Shown: positions 8,218 to 64,000 of the stretch, one piece after another | How positions within the stretch are numbered: the stretch's first letter is position 1 | Layout of the letters: each line of letters begins with the position of its first letter | DNA from: Branchiostoma floridae | Lineage: Eukaryota > Chordata > Leptocardii > Amphioxiformes > Branchiostomatidae | Direction of reading: 5' to 3' | Assembly (NCBI RefSeq): GCF_000003815.2 | Contig: NC_049979.1 | Location: forward strand, 25,962,340-26,026,339 | Length of the DNA stretch: 64,000 nt | The notes under the pieces: generated by a model | Told to the model about the DNA's origin: nothing | Seen by the model: only the letters and a program-made list of their open reading frames with translations | Database searches by the model: none | Position numbers and translations under genes: made by a program

Positions 8218-8666
8218 ACTGATACTAGGGCTGGGTATCGGTACAGCGTACCGGTACAAAACCGGTTTTTCTTATTGGACTGGTCCAGAAAAACCGGACC
8301 TGAAAAAATTACGTGGACCGGATGTTGGACCGATAAGAAAATTAACATATTATTTCATCAGGCGTTCACACGTTTTGGCGCTTGCAGGTGGAAGAAAATA
8401 ACAAGAGCGAAGTAGAGTAGAGTTTATAGAAATTTTCACCAAGTTATACAGCCAATCGCACAGGTGCAAATAGCGTTGTAGGATTTTAAAACGCCAGTTT
8501 AAGTCTAATACTCCACCAAACAGATGTATTTGTAGTGAAATGGACCATTGGTATGAGTCATACTGAATTAGGTCCAGGTTCAGGTCCGGACCTGGACCTG
8601 ATCCTTTGGACCTGAACCGGACCTGGACCTGAATTTTCTGTACCGGTACCCAGCCCTAACTGATAC
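8218..8666. mobile_element. hAT-like MITE, TAGGGCTGGGTA family, copy A with 8-bp duplication
   Basis: The element spans 8226-8658 (433 bp) between TAGGGCTGGGTATCGGTAC and GTACCCAGCCCTA. It is flanked by the perfect 8-bp duplication ACTGATAC at 8218-8225 and 8659-8666. The interior holds subterminal repeats built from GGTCCGGACCTGGACCTG-like words. It has no coding capacity. An 8-bp duplication is characteristic of hAT transposons. Confidence 0.92.
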
Positions 8667-10468: not shown

Positions 10469-10917
10469 GTGTGAAGTAGGGCTGGGTATCGGTACAGTGT
10501 ACCGGTACAAAACCGGTTTTTCTTTTTGGACCGGTCCAGAAAAACCGGACCTGAAAAAAGTAGGTGGACCGGATGTTGGACCTTTAAGAAAATTAACATA
10601 TTATTTGATCAGGAATTCACACGTTTTGGCGCTTGCACGTGGAAGAAAATGACAAGAGCGAAGCAGATTTTAGTTTATATTAATTTCTACCAAGTTTTAC
10701 AGTCAATCGTACAGGTGCAGTTAGCGTTTTAGGTTTTTAAAACGCCGGTGTGAGTCTAATACTCCACCAAACAGATTTCTTTGTAGTGAAATGGACCATT
10801 GGTATGATTCAGACTGAATCAGGTTCAGGTTCAGGTCCGGACCTGGACCTGATCCTCTGGACCTGAACCGGACCTAGACCTGAAGTTTCTGTACCGGTAC
10901 CCAGCCCTAGTGTGAAG
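10469..10917. mobile_element. hAT-like MITE, TAGGGCTGGGTA family, copy B with 8-bp duplication
   Basis: The element spans 10477-10909, exactly 433 bp like copy A, and is similar along its whole length. The flanking duplication GTGTGAAG is perfect at 10469-10476 and 10910-10917. Confidence 0.92.
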
Positions 10918-19200: not shown

Positions 19201-22200
19201 ATTATTGACTAATATTTATATTGTTAAGTATAGAAGAGGAGGGCTTAGTATAAGCCGATTTCGATTTTCCCCTCCTCCTGCACCTGTAGTGTTTTTATGT
19301 ATTCTTGTCCTGTATTGATTCATGTATTTTGTGCGAATAAATAAACAACACAAAAATAAACAAATGTTATGATGGATGGAAACAAAGAAGTCTTCCTTGT
19401 TCTCTCCAAATTTAATTCCACTTTCAGGGCTCAAAATCCTTTTTCTGCATACCTGCACAAGACAAATTTTACCTGCACCACTATGAATTAAGAAAGTATG
19501 GATTGTACTAAAATTGTTCATGAACTGTTCCTATTTTTTCTTTTATACTTTATAGGTGGTAACAGTCAATGCAGCTAATAACAATCCACATACACCTAGA
19601 TCATATGATATTTACATTAAAAAAACAGTACATGGACTAGTGCAGGTTAGGTGCAGGTAGCCACCAGAAATACCTGCACAGCTCCAGTTTTACCTGCACC
19701 AACCTGCATATGCAGGTGGTATTTCAAACCATGACTTTCATCCCTGTAACACTTGCAGATTGTAGCAGACAAGTCCCACCACAGTGTGTCGTACACGTTA
19801 TCACGGAACCAGACTGTGGTAGTGGAGTATGTACGAGATGAGGACACAGATATGTTCCAGGTGAGGTTCTGAACATCTATCATAGTTTGCCTCTGTATGT
19901 GTACCTGTACTTAATCTGGGTTATGTGTGTCCAGGCATGTTATACTGTACCGATTTATACAGTGTAAGATTCGAGCTTGTTTCTACTTCTTCAGGGATTC
20001 AGTTTTGTGCATCAATACGATTGAAGACAAAATTAATTTTTAAGGTCAAACTGTCTCTGTTTGATCACATTAAGAACTCTTTTGGGAAGCCACCAATACC
20101 ATCCACATTTTCCTAAGTTTACAGACGAACACTTGAAAAATGCAGTTATTGCATAAAATGTGGATTTTTTATTTTCCACTGTTTCAAAAGATGAAGTCAA
20201 GTTAAGAGTCTAGAGTTGTTATTTAGTCATCTGATATTGTGATATTTTGTTCTTCATGTTTGTATTTTTCTTGTCATTTGCAATTAGCCCACTGTAAGAA
20301 TTTGCACTAAACTAATTATCATAGCGATTATGTTACATCCACAGTTCAAGGTAGCTAACTGTATTGCAAATGGTTCATATTACATGCAAATTTATGTAGG
20401 CTTTTTGAATTGAAGTTGTAAATGCTGACCAATGAAATGTTGAAAGACATTACTAACACTGTTTTAAAGCTGTTTTAATTTGTTTTGCCTCCTCAGATTG
20501 GCCGATCAACAGAGCCACCTATAGACTTTGTAGTGATAGACACCGTGCCGGGCAACAAGACTGCTGAGGACTGTAAAGTACAACAGAGCACCATTTCTAG
20601 ATTCGCATGTCGCATTGTGGTAGAAAGAAACCCAACACATACAGCAAGAATCTATGCTGCAGGCTTTGATTCCTCCAACAATATCTTCCTGGGGGTAAGT
20701 GTTAACAACATTATTCATACCCATGTAAATTTTGTCTATTTTTCTTTAAAAAATGTTTGAATATTGCACAGTGAATTCACATAGTTTGCAGTTTTACATC
20801 TTCATTTGCATAACTATGAGTGTGCATAAAGTCCCCTTTACAAATCAAGAATTTAGCTCCAAATGGGCATTTTCAGTGATAAATACCGCCTCTGCTTGGG
20901 TGTTGTCGAAATTTGGAGAGCTCTGACCGATTCGGCCGGCGTTCACGTGAATTGTAAAGCCGGCTTTAGGAAGGATATGGGCCTGTTAATAAATCCTGAC
21001 ATGCCCACCATGTGTTGGAGGTGCCTGCTACAGTGAATGTTATAATATGAGAGCTATGATGGTAGACATGAATAGTAAGAAAGCACATAATGAACACTGT
21101 CTCGATCTTTGAACATTGGATACATAACTATCAAGAAGAACTGCATATTCAGAGGATAGATGTGGTTAGATAAGTGACAATTGGTCACACTAGCATTGCC
21201 AAAAGCGACTGTTCTATCCATCTGTTCATGTAGCACCCTTGCCCAGTCACTTGTAGCCTTTTTTAGGTGGTTTCCTTTCGACTGGCTGTGTAAAGAAAAA
21301 CTCAAAACCACTGCGAACACTTCATTTTCTTCCTACCACAAAATTTATTCCCCGTGAACTTAAATGCATTTACTGTATGTCATAGCTTAGCTAAGAAGGA
21401 TTTTTAAATGCTAGTCTGGACTATGATAGCTTTTTTGTACATGTTGTACCTTATCTTTGACTGAACTTGTTTGAAACACAAAAGAATAGGGTTCAGCATT
21501 TGGCCTGGGACTTGACCTAATGTGATTACTTTACCTCATGCATCACATATTTGTGTGTTAGAATATTCTATCATTAGTAGATAACCAATCAGCATCAACC
21601 CTCATTAAGAGAATTCTTTAAGCCACCGAGGGATAGTAGTAACTCATGAGATTTTTGTTTCCAGGAAAGAGCAACTAAATGGAAGAGACCAGATAGCTCG
21701 ATGGACGGCCTGACGACCAATGGAGTGCTAATTATGCACCCCACGGGAGGTTTTGGCCAGGAGTGCAAAGCTGGGGTCTGGAGGGAGGTGTCGGTGTGTG
21801 GCGGGATCTACTCACTCCGAGAGACGCGACCAAACCCGCAGAGAGGCAAGCTGATCGATGACGAGTCCAACGTTCTCCATGATGGCACCCTGATCGACTT
21901 GTGCGGGGCGACACTTCTCTGGCGCTCTTCGGCTGGGCTACAGAAAACTCCGGTAAGACATCACCTGTCTTCCTCAGAAGCAGAAGTTGAAGGTGTAATT
22001 ATGTTTCCCGAAGGGAAGAAATATAGTTGTTTTTGCTGGTGTATTCTTGTTCTTTTGTCTTCTTCTATTTTCTTCCACCTGCAAGCGCCAAAACGTATGA
22101 ATTCCTGATAAAAAAATCTGTTAATTTTCTAATAGGTCCAACATCCGGTCCACCTAATTTTTTCAGGACCGGTCCAATAAGAAAAAACGGTTTTGTACCG

Positions 22201-25200
22201 GTACTCTGTACCAATCAGAGCTTAGAAATGCCAGTCATCATATTAGCTGTTCTATGAAATAAAGTATTAGCTGTGACAACAAATATGAATGAAATGCTAG
22301 CTGTTACAGCAAATATGAATGAATAAGCTAGTACAGCAAGTATGAACAATAATACAGATTTGCAAAACCTGTATTTTTAACTATAAGTTCGCAATAGCAA
22401 AACCTGTATTGGTTTCATAAAATTCCAAGTACTGTGAAAGTTTATATTAATTTCTAGTTTGTAGATGACCACATGAAAGTCACTGTAACATTTTTGTTAT
22501 GTCAAGAAATCTTCTATGGAATTGTGTGCGTGGTGGAGGTCTAGTCAGTTACAACTCTTTAAACTCTAGTAGCATCTACATTCTTCAGGAAATGTTTTTG
22601 CTTGCTTTAGATATTGGCAATTGTAGTTAGGCCTATGAAAAAAAAGTTGTGTTTGCTGTTTCAGTCCTGAAAAAATTAAGGTCAGTGGGTATAGGGATCT
22701 TTTTTGCATTTTGCACTTGCAGTCACTGTGGCAAAATGCATTGTGGTCTGTCGCTGTTGTGATGTTGAGATGTTGTGATGTTGGAATCTTGGAATGAACG
22801 GACCTGCTCAATATCTGCAATGCATTTGTATACTTCTTAAAAGCTCTGTCATGAGTCATTGTTTGTGATCCGTAATGGCCCCTGATATTTGATTAGATTA
22901 AATGAATGAAGTATGATATTCCTTAGATTGATGCAGCATACAATCAAATTATTGCTTTAACGTTTTAATGTTGCATTAGCAATTCACAAAAGCGAAATGT
23001 TTTTCTAATAAATCGTATATAAATATAACAGTTACATATAGCCTATCCCAGAGTCCCTTGCGAATTAATTAATATTCATTCGTGGGATTTCCAGAGCAAA
23101 AATTTTCCGAACACGCCACGATTTTTCATTGATCGCCCTGTAATATCGAAAAAGAACTGGACCTTCAAACTTACCAGATTTGTAGTACATGTATGTGCTA
23201 TGGAGACCGTGACAATGTAAAAATGTTAAAGCAGGGGGTAAACGATTGCCGAGATATTGTTTTCTGAAAAGTGCGCTTGGATGCAGGGAAGTGACTTCAG
23301 GGGTCACTACACAAATACCTCTGACGTCAGCCTGATTTGCAGAGCTACGGTCCGTGTGACCCGGGTTCGAGTCCAGGGGGAGGGTGATTTTCAATTGTTC
23401 TTGTTTCCTTTTTGACATCCATTTAATATAAACAAAAGTTTCAGCACATCCCAATAACTAGAAAAAAACGTTTACACACGCAAACCTCGGCAAAATGCCA
23501 GCTTTTTTAAAGCACTTGTTTGTCTTGTAATTTTTTAGGCTGGCCAAAGCTCTAGTGATACATATTATAATACAGTTGAACAAAGTAAACTGTAATGTAT
23601 GAGGACACTTGTCTTTCAATGTCAAACTTAAATTTTAATTCAATAGATACATTTATCCTTTATTAGATAGGACAAGCACCTTTATTATGGTTTGATGTAT
23701 GGTCTTCATATTCATTTAATAGCATTATGATTTGTAAAGTTTGAAGGGGGTAGAGGTTGTATAAGCCACACGGCTTTTTCTCTCCCCTTGCACGTTCTGT
23801 TGTTTTCTTTAATTTGCTGTATTTATGATTGTTTTTAAAGTGCAAAATAAAATCAATAAAAAAAAAAGCAGTGTTTTTATATGTAGGAAGCAGACTGAAT
23901 AAAAATTCTAAGTGGCAAGGTCACTGGCACCCATGTGACTCTTCTGCCAACCCCCACCCCCCAAAAAAGTCCAGGATTGGCAGTTTTTTTTTAGGGTAGG
24001 TAGGGAAACAGGAAACACCACACTTTTTGTCCTAGGCCTTATGATAATGAGAATGCATGGCTCTACACATAAATGTTTGAATATCAGGTTTGCACGGGAA
24101 TATATTTGTGTTATATCTCATTTGACATACTCAAGGAATTACAAGGCTATATCTTTGAGGATAAGGCCAGCTTTCATGCAGAGTTCCCTGCAGTCCGTGG
24201 GAATTCTTTGGGTATACAAGTTGAAGTTGATGGATGTAAATGGATGTGCAATATTCTACAGGGATGCTTGGGCACGTCTGCTCAGTCACTATCGGATTTA
24301 CCATCAGGGTTTTCCTCGTCTTGTCCTGGTATGAACCCTGCGCTGTTGGATACTCAGTGTACTTGAATGGCCCTAGGGTGGCATTCGTCTTGGTCGTCTT
24401 AACTGTGGCAAGGATAAATTGTTAGACCACTTTACCACTGAATATCTGCTATCTGTCTTCAGGAGGATACTACAGCCTATTCACATTAGACAGTATGTGA
24501 TGGAATCTTCACCATGCACGAATGTCTTCATGTTGCCCATGGGTAATATATATTAACATGTACTGGTCTGCTTCCAGCTACATGTAACATATCACTAAGG
24601 TGTTGCAGAACATTGTAGATTTTAATATGGTTGTAAGGAACACCCCTCTCCACTGCTATGAGCCCAAAGATATTTACACAGAGGGGGCAAAATAGATCAT
24701 TTGATAATCTTTTGATATGATATTATGTATGGTAGGCCTCTGTGGATATGCAAAAATGTTTGAGGGAGAAACACACTTGACAGTCATGTCACGTCAGCCT
24801 AGATTGCCTGTTGAGCTTTCGGTTCACTTCACCAAGGTAATGTAAGGGCAATACGCCTTGGGAGACAGTGTGCATAAAGGTACATGTACCTAGTACATGT
24901 TTACATGCATGATATTGAAATAATGCAGCAATACACCTGAATGATAGCATGACATGTATATCATTTACTGGCAGACAATCTTTCAGACATATCATTTGTA
25001 CCCAATTACTTGCAGTAACTGTTAATTGGTTGAGTTCAGATGAGGTTATATGATTTATAATTTTACTTGCATGGGTGGTGATTCAGCATCTGTATCCAAC
25101 TGAGTTTATTACAATGTATTCTTCCACCATCACTCCTTATAAAGTGGTCCCTGAAATTCACAGCTTCTTGTGACCTGAGGGTCAAGGGCAAGTTTGGGCT

Positions 25201-53618: not shown

Positions 53619-56600
53619 GTAAACATCTTAGATATCTACTATCTATTAAACATAAAATATCTACTATCTAAACATGTAATTTATCTAGTTTACTAGCACT
53701 ATCTATCATGATATACATTGTATAATTTGAGTAAAATAGGAGTAGAAACAGAAAGAAACAACATGCCGACACCCGGGATCAAACCCGGGCCGGCAGATCA
53801 CAACCCCAGAAGCACAAACCACTATGCTACAAAAGGCTGATCAGCCCATTGGTATGGTTTGGTTTGGTGCTACTTAAACCCTCCACTTGGGTTTTCGGAA
53901 AACCCTGTCCAGTCCAGACAGGGAAATGGGGCGGAAAACCCTGTCCAGTCTGAAAAGAGGGTCTGCATAGGGGTTCCTGGCAATACTTAAAACTATTACT
54001 TCAGACAGCACTAACACTAAATTGATACACATAACTATAGAATCGGCAGCATAATGAGTGACCCAAAGGTGCAATATGCATGCACACAAAGTTAGTTCTG
54101 GTCTGTCAAATGCAAAGTACCCAATTAACACATATCTGGTAGGACATGAGGAGGAGAGAATTACACCCATTGTCCATCAAACAATGGATAGTGAGTGTCT
54201 GTCAATTTCGTGTTGTTAAATAGTGGCAATACATTACAAAGACAGGCTTTGAAAGGTTTTCTTTAAATGATAAGTGTGCAGTACTCATTTTGAGAGCTGG
54301 TCTGTTTAAATCCCAGTTTTATAGAATGACTGCGAAAGATTCCAATATCAACACGACTTTAGTACACAATGTTATAACATTACATATATTTTACAATGCC
54401 CTACAATAAAGCCGAGATGGCATTTTTCAAACCCTAGAGGCTTTAGAGGCAAGTTGTGAGCTATATAGAACTACATGTATGTATCATTTTAAAAATAAAA
54501 TGGTTTATTAGCAAAAGTATGCCGTAAGGCTATTAATAGCATGTTCAGTCTCAAAGACTTAAAGAGTAGAAGTTTTTTATATGATGCACAGAAGTAGCAA
54601 TGATGGATGATTTTTGTTAAGTTATAATTTTTGTATGACATTGTGTCACACTTCAAGTTGATGTTATTTCTGTGCTTAGCCATATTAAAGATAAAAAATG
54701 TTGTTGTATACTAGTACTTAGTAGCTTACAACGTATACCCCCATGCAGACCCTCTTTTCAGACTGGACAGGGTTTTCCGCATTCCGGACTGGACAGGTTT
54801 TTCCGAAAACCCCCCTCCACTAGTACTGTTACCATTTGTTACATTGATAACATCCTCTGGGAACCCCTCTTTAAAGACACCTCACTTGTGAACAGGTCTT
54901 TTCTATAGTAAGCTTTAACTTATTTCTATTAGAGGAGAATTCTGCTCCAGAAGGTAGTGTTATTTTCTGATAGATATCAATAAGCTACCCATTACTACTA
55001 AATACTAGTAGTCCTGTGTGCATCAAAAAGCATTCAGTCGTCTGCTAAACTTGTCAAGTAATCTCAAATTAGATTAATCAGCCTCAGCTTATGGCTGAAT
55101 ACAATGTACCTGACAATATTGATTTAGACATGCAAAACTAATATCGGGTGATAAGAAAACTCGTCTCTGTATGTGTTCCTTGATACATAAATAACTTTAT
55201 TGCACATATCTTATATATGACAGATTGACCTTCTTGGTGTGCTTAATCTGAAAGTACTTACATGCATACAGTAGGTCTGCATGAGTAGTGAGTGTTATCT
55301 TATTTTGATACAAACATACATCATGTAATTAACAACAACTTGAACAAGTATAATCCCACAAAATGTCGGCTGATTGTGTATTCATCGATACATTATCTAT
55401 TGGTAAATTGAAATCCTCTCTGGAGTGGAATGCCTCTCAATACATGTCCAGATCTGATGTGATTCATGCCTTCAAGGTGTGAATCTGCTTACAACTTAAA
55501 TGAATTTACTTGTATCTCTTACCGCAGGTGCAATCAGTACTTTGCAGAGGTCTTCATCCCAAACCTCCCCAAGCCCCTCCCCTTCCGCCTCAGAACCCTC
55601 TGTAGTGACCGACCAACAGAAGTGGACAGTCTACAACTCTCAGGTAGGGTTGGGTTATACATGTACTGGTATGGAACGGTTTTTTCGTATTGGACCAGTC
55701 CAGAAAAAACGGACCTGAAAAAATGTGGTAGACCGGATGTTGGACTTAATGGAAAATGAACAGATCATATTATCAGGTATTCACACGTTTCGGAGCTTAC
55801 CGGTCGAGGAAAATAACGAGCTAAGTAGAGTAGAGTCTATAATCATTTCTACCAAGTCTTACAGTCAATAGTACAGAGGCAGTTAGCCTTGTAGGATTTT
55901 AGAATGCCAGTGGGAGTCGAATACTACACAAAACAGATTTCTTTGCGAAATGGACCATTGTATCGTCCATTCACAAGTTCTCGCATACTGAATCAGGTCC
56001 AGGTTCAGGTCCGGACCTGAACCTGATCCTCTGGACCTGAACCGGATCTGGACCTGAATTTTCTGTACTGGTACCGACCCCAACTCTCAGGTCAACCTGG
56101 CCGCGGTCCTGAATGACCCTCGGAGAAGCAGGAGGGAACATGACTTCTTTACGAAGACGTGGGGAGAAGACTTCATCGAGATCGGACCTGAAGACATTCA
56201 CCCTTCCTTCTACCTTCCCAACATCACCAAGGCTCATTTTGAACACTACCTGAAGAGTGCCAGACATGTGAGTTGTTTCTTTGTTCGTTTGTATTGCATG
56301 CCTGGTAAACTACATTAAACATCAGGTTTGTTAAATTGTAATGAGCAGTGCAAGCTGCATATCTGGACAGATCTATTTGATCCAGTCACACCAGGAAGGA
56401 CCCCTTCTCTTTTTGATAAAGGTGTTTCAATCTTCAAACACAAATTCAGGACCTCATTTAGCATTGTTTTGGCGGGCATCTGTAGTCTAACTGATGCTAG
56501 CTGCTCCTGATCGAAACTTAATGAAATTTGTGTTACTAGTATGTGCCTTTCCCCAGGGCACAGTGTCGGAGCATATTGAGACTCGAACCCTGAGTACTGC

Positions 56601-59600
56601 TGGGCTTTGAGCCAAACACCTTACCATCACACCACTATTGATCTAAGCATTAAGAATTCTGTCTATCTACAATTTATCACTACAGAGAGGTTTGACCAGG
56701 GTTGTAGCCAGCACCCGCCCTTCCGTTCTTTGACGGAATTTTGTAGCTGTGGCCGGAAAAAAAATTTTGCCCATTCCGTCCTCTGTGTAATTTTTCACCA
56801 AAACAGATGCCATTGAACAGCTTAGTCTACTGGCAAAATTTGCACCTCAAAATGTAGGAAATAGTGTTTCAGTGGGGCTAGATTTCACAGTTTTCTGGAG
56901 AGTATGTCCCTGGATCCCCCTAGGAATGTTGCGCCTTCAATGCTTGATAGGATTCAAAATCAAGGGGACGGAAAATGATATCAGGCTGGCTACAACCCTG
57001 CTGGGTTTGACTGTAATTGACTAAACATGCACATTTCAGTGTTCTGAGTCTAACTTGGTTGTGTTGTGTAATTTTTTCCGCAGAGATATGCTGTCCATCA
57101 ACAAAACAAACACAAACTGCCGACCAACTCTCCACCGTCAGCCCAGACCCTTGCACCATTACCCAGGCATCTAGGTAAGCAGTTTTAAACCTCCAACTGT
57201 TGCACTGTTTTATATGAAGAACTTTATTGCACGATGACTGTGAGGTGGCGTAGCGCAGTGGCAGCGTGTTTGCCTCGTGACCGAGAGGCTAATACAAGTC
57301 TTTGATATAGTGTTACAATGGGGCTAATCATGAGTTTCGGAATTCTTTCTAATAACACAGCAGTCTTTTATATATTTGCCTATCTTTGCATTATGGGAGT
57401 TTTGGTATCTAAAGTAAAGATATTTAGAAAATCTGTCTGTAGCATCAAGTCTGTTGTACTTGATTCGAGAAATGTGAATAGCTCATTACGTAAAATAGCG
57501 TATCTAGAACAATTTTAAAAAGTGAAATTCATCTCCATATACATTGTCAGGTGCAAGTTGATATTATATTTATAGCAAAACACTGATGGTTTATTAAAGA
57601 ACAAGTCAGTTATGAATATGAATTGAATTGTACCAAAGCAAAACTGGGGTGTGCAAAAGGCCATTTTAGTTCTTTCTACTTCTGTTGCAACCACAGCTGT
57701 TACAAATTTAGAATGGGTATATATAGGTAGGTATTAGTATTATTGAAAGGGCATAACAGCTTGTGTCCTCACATTGACATCAATACTTTGAGTGAATGAT
57801 ACACATTCTCCTATGCAGGGACATTGAAAACTTTTGGGACTATTATGTGCAAATATTCCTGTACATTCACAGATTAGCGTAAGATACATGTAGTTATGAA
57901 AATAAACTTTTTACCCTCTGTATTCCTACACAGACAAAGGAAAGGCTGATTTGGAGCAGGTACCAAAGGTAATACAAAAAGAATATGAAACTTTTTTATT
58001 AACTATGTTGTTTGGATTATGTGGATAACGAGGGGGATAACATCCTTTGGGAGCCCCTAATCTGCCGAGAGCATGCAGAGAAAAAATGTTTGGCAAAGAT
58101 TTTGGAATTGGCATTTTATGATATTTGTATGCGTTTTCTGATATTTTTTTTACAATTTACAGCACATTTTACAGCTGCTGGTCGAAAACCTTTTTTTAAG
58201 CTAAAATTTTTGTGCGTACAAATGTCATCCATATAATCAAATCAAGGATGTAACTGGATGTTATTATTGTAATTAGAGAAACCCCATGTAACTAGCTAGT
58301 ACTAGTACATTTATATATAAGAGTTGGTTTGTCATGTTAGATTGTTCCTCTATCTTTCAGATTTTCATGCAGCCCAATTTTGCACTGGAAAACCCAGCAA
58401 CCTTCAACACAGTCTTGCCATGGTCCCAGTTTGAACCACCCAAAGACAAGGAGCAGGGAAGACAGTCCTCCAAGCTTCTACAGGAAAAGGTAGAATTATA
58501 CAAACATGTAGATACACTTACATGCATGTTGTATGCAAAGTAGGTGTGGGTACCGGTACAGAAAATTCAGGTCCAGGTCCGGTCCAGACCTAAACTTGGA
58601 CCTAATTATCTGTAAAAGCTTGTGAACGGGCGATACTCAAAACATTGGTCCATTTCCTACAAAGAATTCTGTTTGGTGTATCCGATGTAAACTGACTATC
58701 TTCATGTAAATAACACTGACTGTCTCTGTTTGAGACCAAGTTTGACTATAGAAACTTGGTAAAAATGACTATCCACTTGCCTCTACTTCGCTCTTGTTAT
58801 TGTCTTGGATCAGAAAGCCTGAAAATATGTGAATGCCTGTTCAGTTTCAAAATCGGTCCAAAATCCGGTCCTCTGACTTTTTTCAGGTCCAGTTTTTTTT
58901 TTACTGGTCCAAGAAGATTTTTTGTTTGTTTGCTTTATTTGGATCACCAATTTAGGGATACTAAATCGAGTATCACTATTCTTCCTGGTGTCCTATAATG
59001 GTAAAATGGTTTTACATCATACAAACCCCTTATCCAAAGGCATAGCCCTTTGATAGTATGAAGCACAGCATTTCAACCTTTATGGTCAAACTTTTAATTC
59101 TGTCATGTAACCTAAATTTTGAGCCCTTGACCTGTGATCTGTACCGTACACACTTATGCTTAGGCCTGGAAAAAAATGTTGTGTTTCAAGTTAACCAATC
59201 AACCTTACCAAAAACCTGCTGACCTAGACATTTATTGTCAGCCACTGACAAAGGGCATAAAAGTTTTGACCTCACATTTAGGTGAAGATATTCCAAACAG
59301 ACTTCCTGTTGAAAATGTTATACTTTGGACAGTTTATATAAGAGTGTGTACCAAACAGGGAAGGTAGATGGTATAAACTTCCTGGCACTTTTGACCAATT
59401 GCTGATGTCACGTATATGCACGATCAATAAGGTCAGGTGTTTCTAATTCTTGCGAGTTCACGTTTTAAAAGTGACTGGTCATTATTCATCCTGAAGAAGG
59501 CAACTTATGTTAGAAAAAAGTTTAACATTGTACTATAGTAAACATTATGACTATTGTAATTACAAGATGATGTTGAAAGTACCAGTGCCTGAATCATTTC

Positions 59601-62406: not shown

Positions 62407-64000
62407 CTAATTACTCATCCGCTGATTCATCTGTTCCTTCAGCTCAAAATAGAACATGGCTTTTGAGTAATCACCGTAGTCTGTCCAGGCAACACTCAGA
62501 TTGTTAAGTACAACTGCAATGTCAGGATGTGCAGTGTTGTCACCATAGATAATCTGCTTCATCTTCAGTGACTGTTCATAGTAGCTGATGGCCTTTCTGT
62601 GATCACCAAGTTTCCACCAGGTGGCACCCAAGTTGTTAAGTGAGTCAGCAATGTCAGGATGTGCAGTGTTATCACCATAGATAATCTGCTTCATCTTTAG
62701 CGACTGTTCATAGTAGTTGATGGCCTTTCTGTGATCACCAAGTTTCCTCCAGGCGGTACCCAAGTTGTTAAGTGAAGAGGCAATGTTAGGATGTGCAGTG
62801 TCCTCCCCACGGATAATCCGCCTCATCTGTAGTGACTGTTCATAGTAGATGATGGCCTTTCTGTGATCACCAAGTTTCCTCCAGGCAACACCTAAGTTGT
62901 TAAGTGAGCTAGTGATGTCAGGATGTGCAGTGTTATCACCATAGATAATCTGCTTCATCTTTAGTGATTGTTCATAGAAGCTGATGGCCTTTCTGTGATC
63001 ACCAAGGTTACTCCAAGCGGTACCCAAGTTGTTAAGTAAGGAGGCGATGTCAGGATGTGCAGTGTTATCACCATAGATAATCCGCTTCATCTTTAGTGAC
63101 TGTTCATAGTAGCTGATGGCCTTTCTGTGATCACCAAGTTTCCTCCAGGCAGCACCCAAGTTGTTGAGTGAGTCTGCAATGTCAGGATGTTCAGTGTTAT
63201 CACCATAGAAAATTCGCTTCATCTGTAGTGACTGTTCATAGTAGCTGATGGCCATTCTGTGATCACCAAGGTGACTCCAGGCGGCACCCAAGTTGTTAAG
63301 TGAGTAAGCAATGTCAGGATGTGCAGTGTTCTCACCATAGATATGGCGCATCATCTGTAGTGACTGCTCAATATAACCAACAGCCTTTCTTTGATCACCA
63401 AGTTTTATCCAAGTGTTACCTAAGGCACCAAGTGCTTGGGCAACATCAAATTGTGGGTTGTTTTCACCATATGATATTTTATTCTGAAGTGTTTCTTCTA
63501 TGCATGTCGCAGTACTTTTGTAATCACATAGACTTTCGTACACCTCTGCTTTCAGTTCTGAAGAGTTGTCAAACAAGATGGACTGCTTTTTCTGTGACTG
63601 GCTATAGGTCAGCTGTGAAATGACTCTCTTTAACGGCCTTGCCGTGTAATAGTATCTCATGAGCTGCTGTCTATTTGAGAAGTAAAATACTTTCTGCAGT
63701 TTTTCCCCAATGTCAGCATCTCTTGATATTGATGATAAGGCTGACATGTTTTCCACCTGACCACCATTGTTTATGTATGTCCGCAGCCTCAGTTCTGCTG
63801 AGATACTGACCATCACCAACAAGTGATGTGTGTTCTCAGCATTGACGACCCCGCCCGTTTTAAGCTCCTGGATAGTCTCCCAGATTGTGGTTGGTTGTAT
63901 GTTATGAAGTAGCGCCCAACAGGACACTGCAAGGCTTGAAAATCGATACATTTCTTTCTTTACATTCAACAGATTTTCAGTTAGATGTAGGATTTGAAAT
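62407..64000 (-). CDS. TPR-repeat protein, C-terminal part (N-terminus cut by window edge)
   Basis: The minus-strand frame is open to the window edge; the first in-frame ATG is at 63951, but the frame continues upstream ([13 protein letters not shown]), so the start is probably outside. About 165 residues of helical-looking sequence ([35 protein letters not shown]) precede eight tetratricopeptide repeats of 44 residues, with consensus around [20 protein letters not shown] and [16 protein letters not shown]. The stop is at 62407-62409. Repeats of this kinesin-light-chain / NPHP3-like type bind partner proteins. The N-terminal part is loosely reminiscent of nucleotidyltransferase-linked helical domains, a weak suggestion. 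No intron interrupts 1.59 kb, unlike the neighbours. It lies antisense inside VPS54. Confidence 0.85.
62411..63460 (-). repeat. Eight tandem 132-bp TPR-coding units
   Basis: TTTCTGTGATCACCAAG recurs every 132 bases (about 62595, 62727, 62859, 62991, 63123, 63255). Central units are nearly identical at the DNA level; the outermost two are diverged. Confidence 0.95.

Follow-up and report, generated by a model that had tools for sequence, protein, structure and literature searches.

A predicted lancelet VPS54 intron that consists of one hAT-type MITE and one copy of its target-site duplication

Introner elements were reportedly described by Huff et al. in 2016, and introns formed by the maize element Ds were reportedly described by Dennis in 1988, Wessler in 1991, and Giroux in 1994. 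The maize Ds introns are recent mutant alleles, and their splicing is often imprecise or alternative. In a survey of 3,325 genomes, introners were found in 175, and among animals and land plants they were reported from only two animal groups (Gozashti et al. 2022, PMC9860276). In some of the surveyed families, the splice sites are partly or wholly recruited from the target-site duplications. The words Branchiostoma and chordate are absent from the main text of that survey. That maize Ds, which belongs to the hAT elements, can behave as an intron is long established, judging by titles cited in PMC3260210, and transposon-derived intron gain has been reported for maize, rice, Oikopleura, and Drosophila (PMC3296678). 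Introner transposons are also mentioned in a paper on splicing in Fritillaria (PMC13326754).

The origin of new introns has been a question for a long time, and the age of most introns leaves their source unrecognizable. We analyzed a 64,000-nucleotide stretch of lancelet DNA (here called the window) in which a transposable element, the duplication made at its insertion, and the exon as it stood beforehand all appear recoverable, so that VPS54 offers a legible case of a mechanism already known. As described for introners (PMC9860276), a DNA transposon that is non-autonomous and has inverted repeats and a target duplication would here have entered an exon and become a spliceosomal intron with splice sites derived partly or wholly from the duplication, and most introner families likewise leave the mRNA length unchanged. 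At VPS54 and at a second locus, the ends of a predicted exon-insertion intron coincide with the element plus its duplication, as they do in introners. In published introner families, between 5 and more than 2,000 copies form introns (PMC9860276), whereas the lancelet MITE has two clear cases and one weak one, with 3882 exact terminal matches.

The locus also resembles the maize Ds introns, in that a hAT element with an 8-bp duplication lies in an exon and, as predicted for VPS54, acts as an intron. It differs from those recent mutant alleles in that the insertion is old and that exact restoration of the frame is predicted. Introns gained from transposons are known from other chordates, the larvacean tunicates Oikopleura (PMC3296678) and Fritillaria (PMC13326754), so the view of the first-pass annotation that such an event is rarely caught this clearly in a chordate needs tempering. 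The introns of Fritillaria borealis are mostly non-GT/AG (PMC13326754), whereas that of lancelet VPS54 has canonical GT-AG ends and lies in a housekeeping gene. The Doc1053 intron of Drosophila (Dsec, PMC3296678) likewise consists of one transposon and its target duplications, but Doc1053 is a retrotransposon and added five amino acids, in contrast to the exact restoration predicted for the VPS54 MITE. Among the papers listed on amphioxus intron gain and on introners in Branchiostoma, mostly open access, we found none on transposon-made introns in lancelets. The mechanism matches that of the published introners and of the maize Ds introns; the sequence rule and the second event described below are new.

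Anatomy of the intron and identity of the gene

The predicted VPS54 intron is made up of the element and one copy of its duplication, with no extra bases (Table 1). The two copies of the duplication are identical at 8/8 positions, and the arithmetic chance of an 8-bp repeat at predetermined ends is 1/65536. The donor reads AACTCTCAG|GTAGGG and the acceptor reads CCCCAACTCTCAG|GTCAAC. When the exons were joined, the frame was open across YNSQ|VN, whereas the unspliced frame through the element contained several stops; the element has stops in every forward frame. The termini of this copy have decayed to TAGGGTTGGGTTATAC... and ...GGTACCGACCCCAA, and they no longer form a good inverted repeat. 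The first-pass annotation had proposed that the intron equals one MITE plus one duplication copy, that removing both leaves an uninterrupted VPS54 block, and that the donor combines the last G of the upstream duplication with the TA of the element while the acceptor CTCTCAG comes from the downstream duplication. Its coordinates were confirmed base for base, the joined frame ran open through the block, and the derivation of the splice sites matched the sequence exactly.

Table 1. Positions of the predicted intron, its parts, and related elements in the window
Feature	Position	Strand	Detail
Sibling MITE, 433 bp, young subfamily	8226..8658	+	perfect 8-bp duplication ACTGATAC
Sibling MITE, 433 bp, young subfamily	10477..10909	+	perfect 8-bp duplication GTGTGAAG
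VPS54 exon 5' of the intron	55528..55643	+	start inferred from acceptor TACCGCAG|GT; reads AISTLQ...VYNSQ
Upstream target-site duplication CTCTCAGG	55637..55644	+	CAG is the exon end; last G is intron position +1
Predicted intron, 447 bp	55644..56090	+	CAG|GTAGGG ... CTCTCAG|G
hAT-like MITE, 439 bp, forward orientation, older subfamily	55645..56083	+	8.9% from subfamily consensus
Putative element-supplied branch-point-like CTGAAT, then TTTTCT	56054..56064	+	no AG before the duplication's AG
Downstream target-site duplication CTCTCAGG	56084..56091	+	source of acceptor CTCTCAG|G
VPS54 exon 3' of the intron	56091..56267	+	matched by colinear VPS54 series

The gene was identified as VPS54 because eight exon matches to a vertebrate VPS54 probe are colinear (five in the window and three in the region L073) and because the Vps54 family domain PF07928 lies downstream at C1:26063033-26063665, on the same contig and strand and about 37 kb beyond the end of the window. 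The alignment to this probe is gapless at the exon junction. The better of the two PF07928 matches holds one TAA, which represents either an intron edge or damage. When the 513-Mb genome was searched with the exon downstream of the intron, a single match was obtained among the three candidates scored, and neither a haplotig nor a VPS54 paralog without the element was found. The VPS54 exons identified do not include an N-terminal exon with the start codon. A Pfam search over the N-terminal block gave no match, the PF10475 profile matched only a locus on another contig, and a search of solved structures to confirm VPS54 and HAUS5 returned no matches. Two other features were seen between exons of the gene. 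An old copy of the MITE family, about 66% identical, lies on the minus strand at positions 58541-58917 as an ordinary insertion in a later VPS54 intron, and positions 62516-63405 hold 6.7 tandem copies of a 132-bp unit, with 86% matches.

The MITE family and the age of the insertion

The family to which the element belongs has the end sequence TAGGGNTGGGTAYCGG. In the two siblings in the window, the ends agree at 20/21 first bases, and short terminal inverted repeats, TAGGGCTGGGTA(T/C)CGGTACAG, are present at both ends; those of other copies are similar. Relatives were found on many contigs in a genome search in which 40 of 4340 candidates were scored, and the exact terminal pattern matched 3882 times genome-wide, with at most two matches per copy and some in tandem arrays. 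Copies are short (433-439 bp in the window), non-coding, and numerous, as is typical of MITEs. Among the copies examined, an identical 8-bp duplication was present at 32 distinct sites, identity being required for counting.

The consensus of hAT duplications is nTnnnnAn. In a small sample of eight copies chosen without regard to flanking sequence (L002-L007 plus both siblings in the window), read on both strands, T was present at position 2 in 12/16 counts and A at position 7 in 12/16. The VPS54 duplication has T at position 2 but G at position 7. The 8-bp duplications, the duplication preference, and the terminal inverted repeats support assignment of the family to the non-autonomous hAT-type MITEs, in line with the hAT-like affinity proposed at first.

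The VPS54 copy matched the family model over positions 1-431 of 433 (nhmmer E 6.8e-121), and it is only about 79-80% identical to the two window copies. The first-pass annotation had called these the siblings of the VPS54 element, with a length of 433 bp and 8-bp duplications of their own; both of these features hold, but the VPS54 copy falls in an older subfamily. An alignment of 35 copies was divided into a young group of 23, which lie on average 3.5% from their consensus and end in CCCAGCCCTA, and 12 others, 10 of which were used to build an older consensus ending in CCCACCCCTA. The VPS54 copy diverges by 14.6% from the young consensus and by 8.9% from the older one, although the latter figure may be an underestimate, since 6 of the 10 copies behind the older consensus had been fetched as the best relatives of the VPS54 copy. 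A divergence of about 9% between the element and the consensus of its subfamily means that the insertion is not recent. We infer, without offering a date, that it probably predates ordinary allelic variation, since this divergence exceeds the heterozygosity of 3.2-4.2% reported for sequenced amphioxus species (PMC12500494).

Other traces of the family were noted. A fragment lies on the minus strand at positions 22065-22215 of the window. Elsewhere in the genome, the terminal sequence of the MITE occurs in short-period tandem repeats, with a spacing of 36 bp at C2:34946530-34946656 (L078) and with multiples of 20 bp at C1:192873-193308. The C2 and C1 repeats look like satellites that grew out of MITE ends.

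Proposed mechanism and alternative readings

The reading that we favor, with a probability of about 0.85, is that the intron arose when a hAT-type MITE landed in a VPS54 coding exon that had until then been continuous. The transposon-made intron of the first-pass annotation is supported by its anatomy, by the single match of the exon in the genome, by the colinear exons, and by the second case in a VWA-domain gene; its splicing and its ancestral state stay predictions. In this mechanism, a non-autonomous element would have entered the exon at CTCTCAGG, and the transposase would have made the usual 8-bp duplication, leaving a usable intron at once. The donor would be formed by the CAG and the last G of the upstream duplication joined to the terminal TAGGG of the element, and the CAG of the downstream duplication would serve as the acceptor. 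The 3' end of the element would contribute the branch-like CTGAAT, a short pyrimidine run, and an AG-free stretch. Excision of the element with one duplication would restore the exact reading frame, and because of this restoration the allele could persist and drift. We infer that the spliceosome uses these sites, that branching takes place at the branch-like motif, and that no intron split the exon until the element arrived.

The splice signals were compared between copies. The donor CAG|GTAGGG matches CAGGTAAGT at 7/9 positions. For an element that ends in TAGGG and makes an 8-bp duplication, exact restoration of the mRNA is possible only when the duplication is NNNNNAGG, and we refer to this as the AGG rule. 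Apart from the AG of the acceptor itself, the last 45 nt of the intron are free of AG in the older consensus, in the VPS54 copy, and in the copy in the VWA-domain gene. In the same site, the young consensus would carry an extra AG 12 nt before that of the duplication, and its use would add CCC TAC TCT CAG, which is 12 nt and in frame. This extra AG suggests a reason for which insertions of one subfamily, but perhaps not those of the other, give clean introns. The copies in VPS54 and in the VWA-domain gene are both of the older type and are inserted in the forward orientation, and in each of them CTGAAT and a run of pyrimidines lie about 27-37 nt from the 3' end of the intron. The donor was mostly paired in the predicted folds (mean unpaired probability, 0.27), and this pairing could weaken splicing.

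Such pairing would also suit a different outcome, in which the insertion broke VPS54, the element is unspliced or poorly spliced, and the sequenced haplotype is a null or weak allele. The stops in the unspliced frame and the TAA inside the downstream PF07928 match point the same way. We consider this outcome unlikely because the exon matches only once in the genome and colinear VPS54 exons follow downstream; the downstream matches, in the window and in L073, are also open, and both splice sites are canonical. Both flanking exons, moreover, are intact and open despite the 8.9% divergence of the element from its subfamily consensus.

Slightly less probable still is an ancestral intron at this codon, either one that the MITE entered and whose remainder was then lost or one that was lost and then re-created by the MITE at the same proto-splice site. 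Introns often sit at CAG|GT. Mammalian VPS54 isoforms differ by a 12-residue in-frame segment, and given this segment there may be a vertebrate intron near the YNSQ|VN codon. Exons 1-4 of mouse VPS54 encode 152 residues (PMC3664746), a figure that does not locate the alternative segment and does not settle the matter. Against an ancestral intron, nothing of an older intron is left between the VPS54 exons and the duplications, and the intron of the VWA-domain gene sits in a domain whose paralogs have no intron at that place. Chance might also have placed a MITE inside an older intron with its ends close to the splice sites, a reading that would draw on the abundance of the family and on the old copy inside the later VPS54 intron. 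The sequence already contradicts this coincidence, which we regard as extremely improbable, since both intron ends match a fully identical duplication to the base.

Further predicted introns of the family and the genome-wide search

The proposed creation of the VPS54 intron by a MITE insertion has a parallel in a gene encoding a VWA domain. A genome search for other introns made of the same element, an idea already raised in the first-pass annotation, gave one clear case (L036) and one probable case (L060). At L036 (C2:5443405-5443424, minus strand), a 424-bp family copy with intact ends and the duplication CCCCCAGG interrupts the VWA-domain gene, and the joined flanks encode a VWA domain across DPQ|GKT (Pfam VWA E 5.1e-21). 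Among 104 VWA matches in the genome, 101 are uninterrupted over residues 40-56; of the three exceptions, two are the halves of L036 itself and one begins at residue 47. Three VWA paralogs on the same contig align straight through the DPQ|GKT position (3/3). These paralogs and domain matches are the strongest evidence on this point, and they support the view that the intron at L036 is the derived state. The same family thus appears to have made introns at least twice.

The probable case is a 774-bp intron within HAUS5 (L060, C5:29113486-29113500, minus strand; Pfam E 1.9e-14 for the joined sequence). The first 69 bp of this intron match a reverse-oriented family end anchored at the exon border (E 1.4e-5), and the intron is flanked by the near-duplications CATTCAGG and CATCCAGG. 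We grade this third, weaker case as only probable because the 3' part is unrecognizable and the score does not exceed the one obtained when both ends of one copy are compared with each other. The family model thus covers two introns end to end, those of VPS54 and L036, and only the 5' 69 bp of the HAUS5 intron.

The AGG rule was applied as a search of the genome. It returned 56 AGG-flanked ends and 58 matches to the pattern CAGGTAGGGNTGGGT, which together represent 87 distinct sites; the reversed control of the pattern gave 10 matches versus 58. Of the sites, 58 were read, L036 among them, 5 were read on the upstream side only, and 24 were left out (20 single sites and 4 in an array on C13). 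There was no excess of AGG duplications among the terminal matches, with 56/3882 (1.44%) versus the 1/64 (1.56%) of chance. Since these two values are close, a genome-wide burst of intron making is not indicated, and copies of the family have not accumulated at intron-making sites.

The coding potential of the flanks was compared in a control that reduced 74 rows, mostly both strands per copy, to 25 AGG copies and 14 non-AGG copies. Recognized coding sequence flanked 2/25 AGG copies, namely, VPS54, which was the seed of the search, and L036. Pfam searches with the joined frames of 14 other AGG copies gave no match at the curated cut-off and two below it (E ~0.07); 9/25 AGG copies were outside the Pfam control. 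For 10/14 non-AGG copies, there was likewise no match at the cut-off and one below it (E 0.046), and the frames of L069 and L054, which lie outside the control set, gave no match. This control is too small to test selection.

It is possible, at somewhat less than even odds, that the older subfamily acts slowly as an introner in a chordate outside the tunicates, with intron competence built into its ends, and that several introns share this origin. If so, every insertion of the older subfamily into a coding NNNNNAGG would be an instant, frame-neutral intron, and the introns of VPS54, the VWA-domain gene, and HAUS5 would share their origin with copies too decayed for the search patterns. Lancelets would then have a countable and datable route of intron gain. 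The rule itself, a duplication ending in AGG beside a TAGGG end, can be applied to the genome of any lancelet for which transcripts are available, as a way of counting the introns gained.

One cluster of CAGGTAGGGNTGGGT matches, at C13:20120336-20121084, was rejected as a candidate. Three of its seven matches were read, and they belong to a tandem array of exon-like units and not to MITE insertions. In the surrounding region (L090, C13:20120000-20121200), exon-like units of about 150 bp alternate with intron-like spacers, several of which end in CAG|GTAGG. By eye, the array adjoins an apparent fragment of the MITE family found in VPS54.
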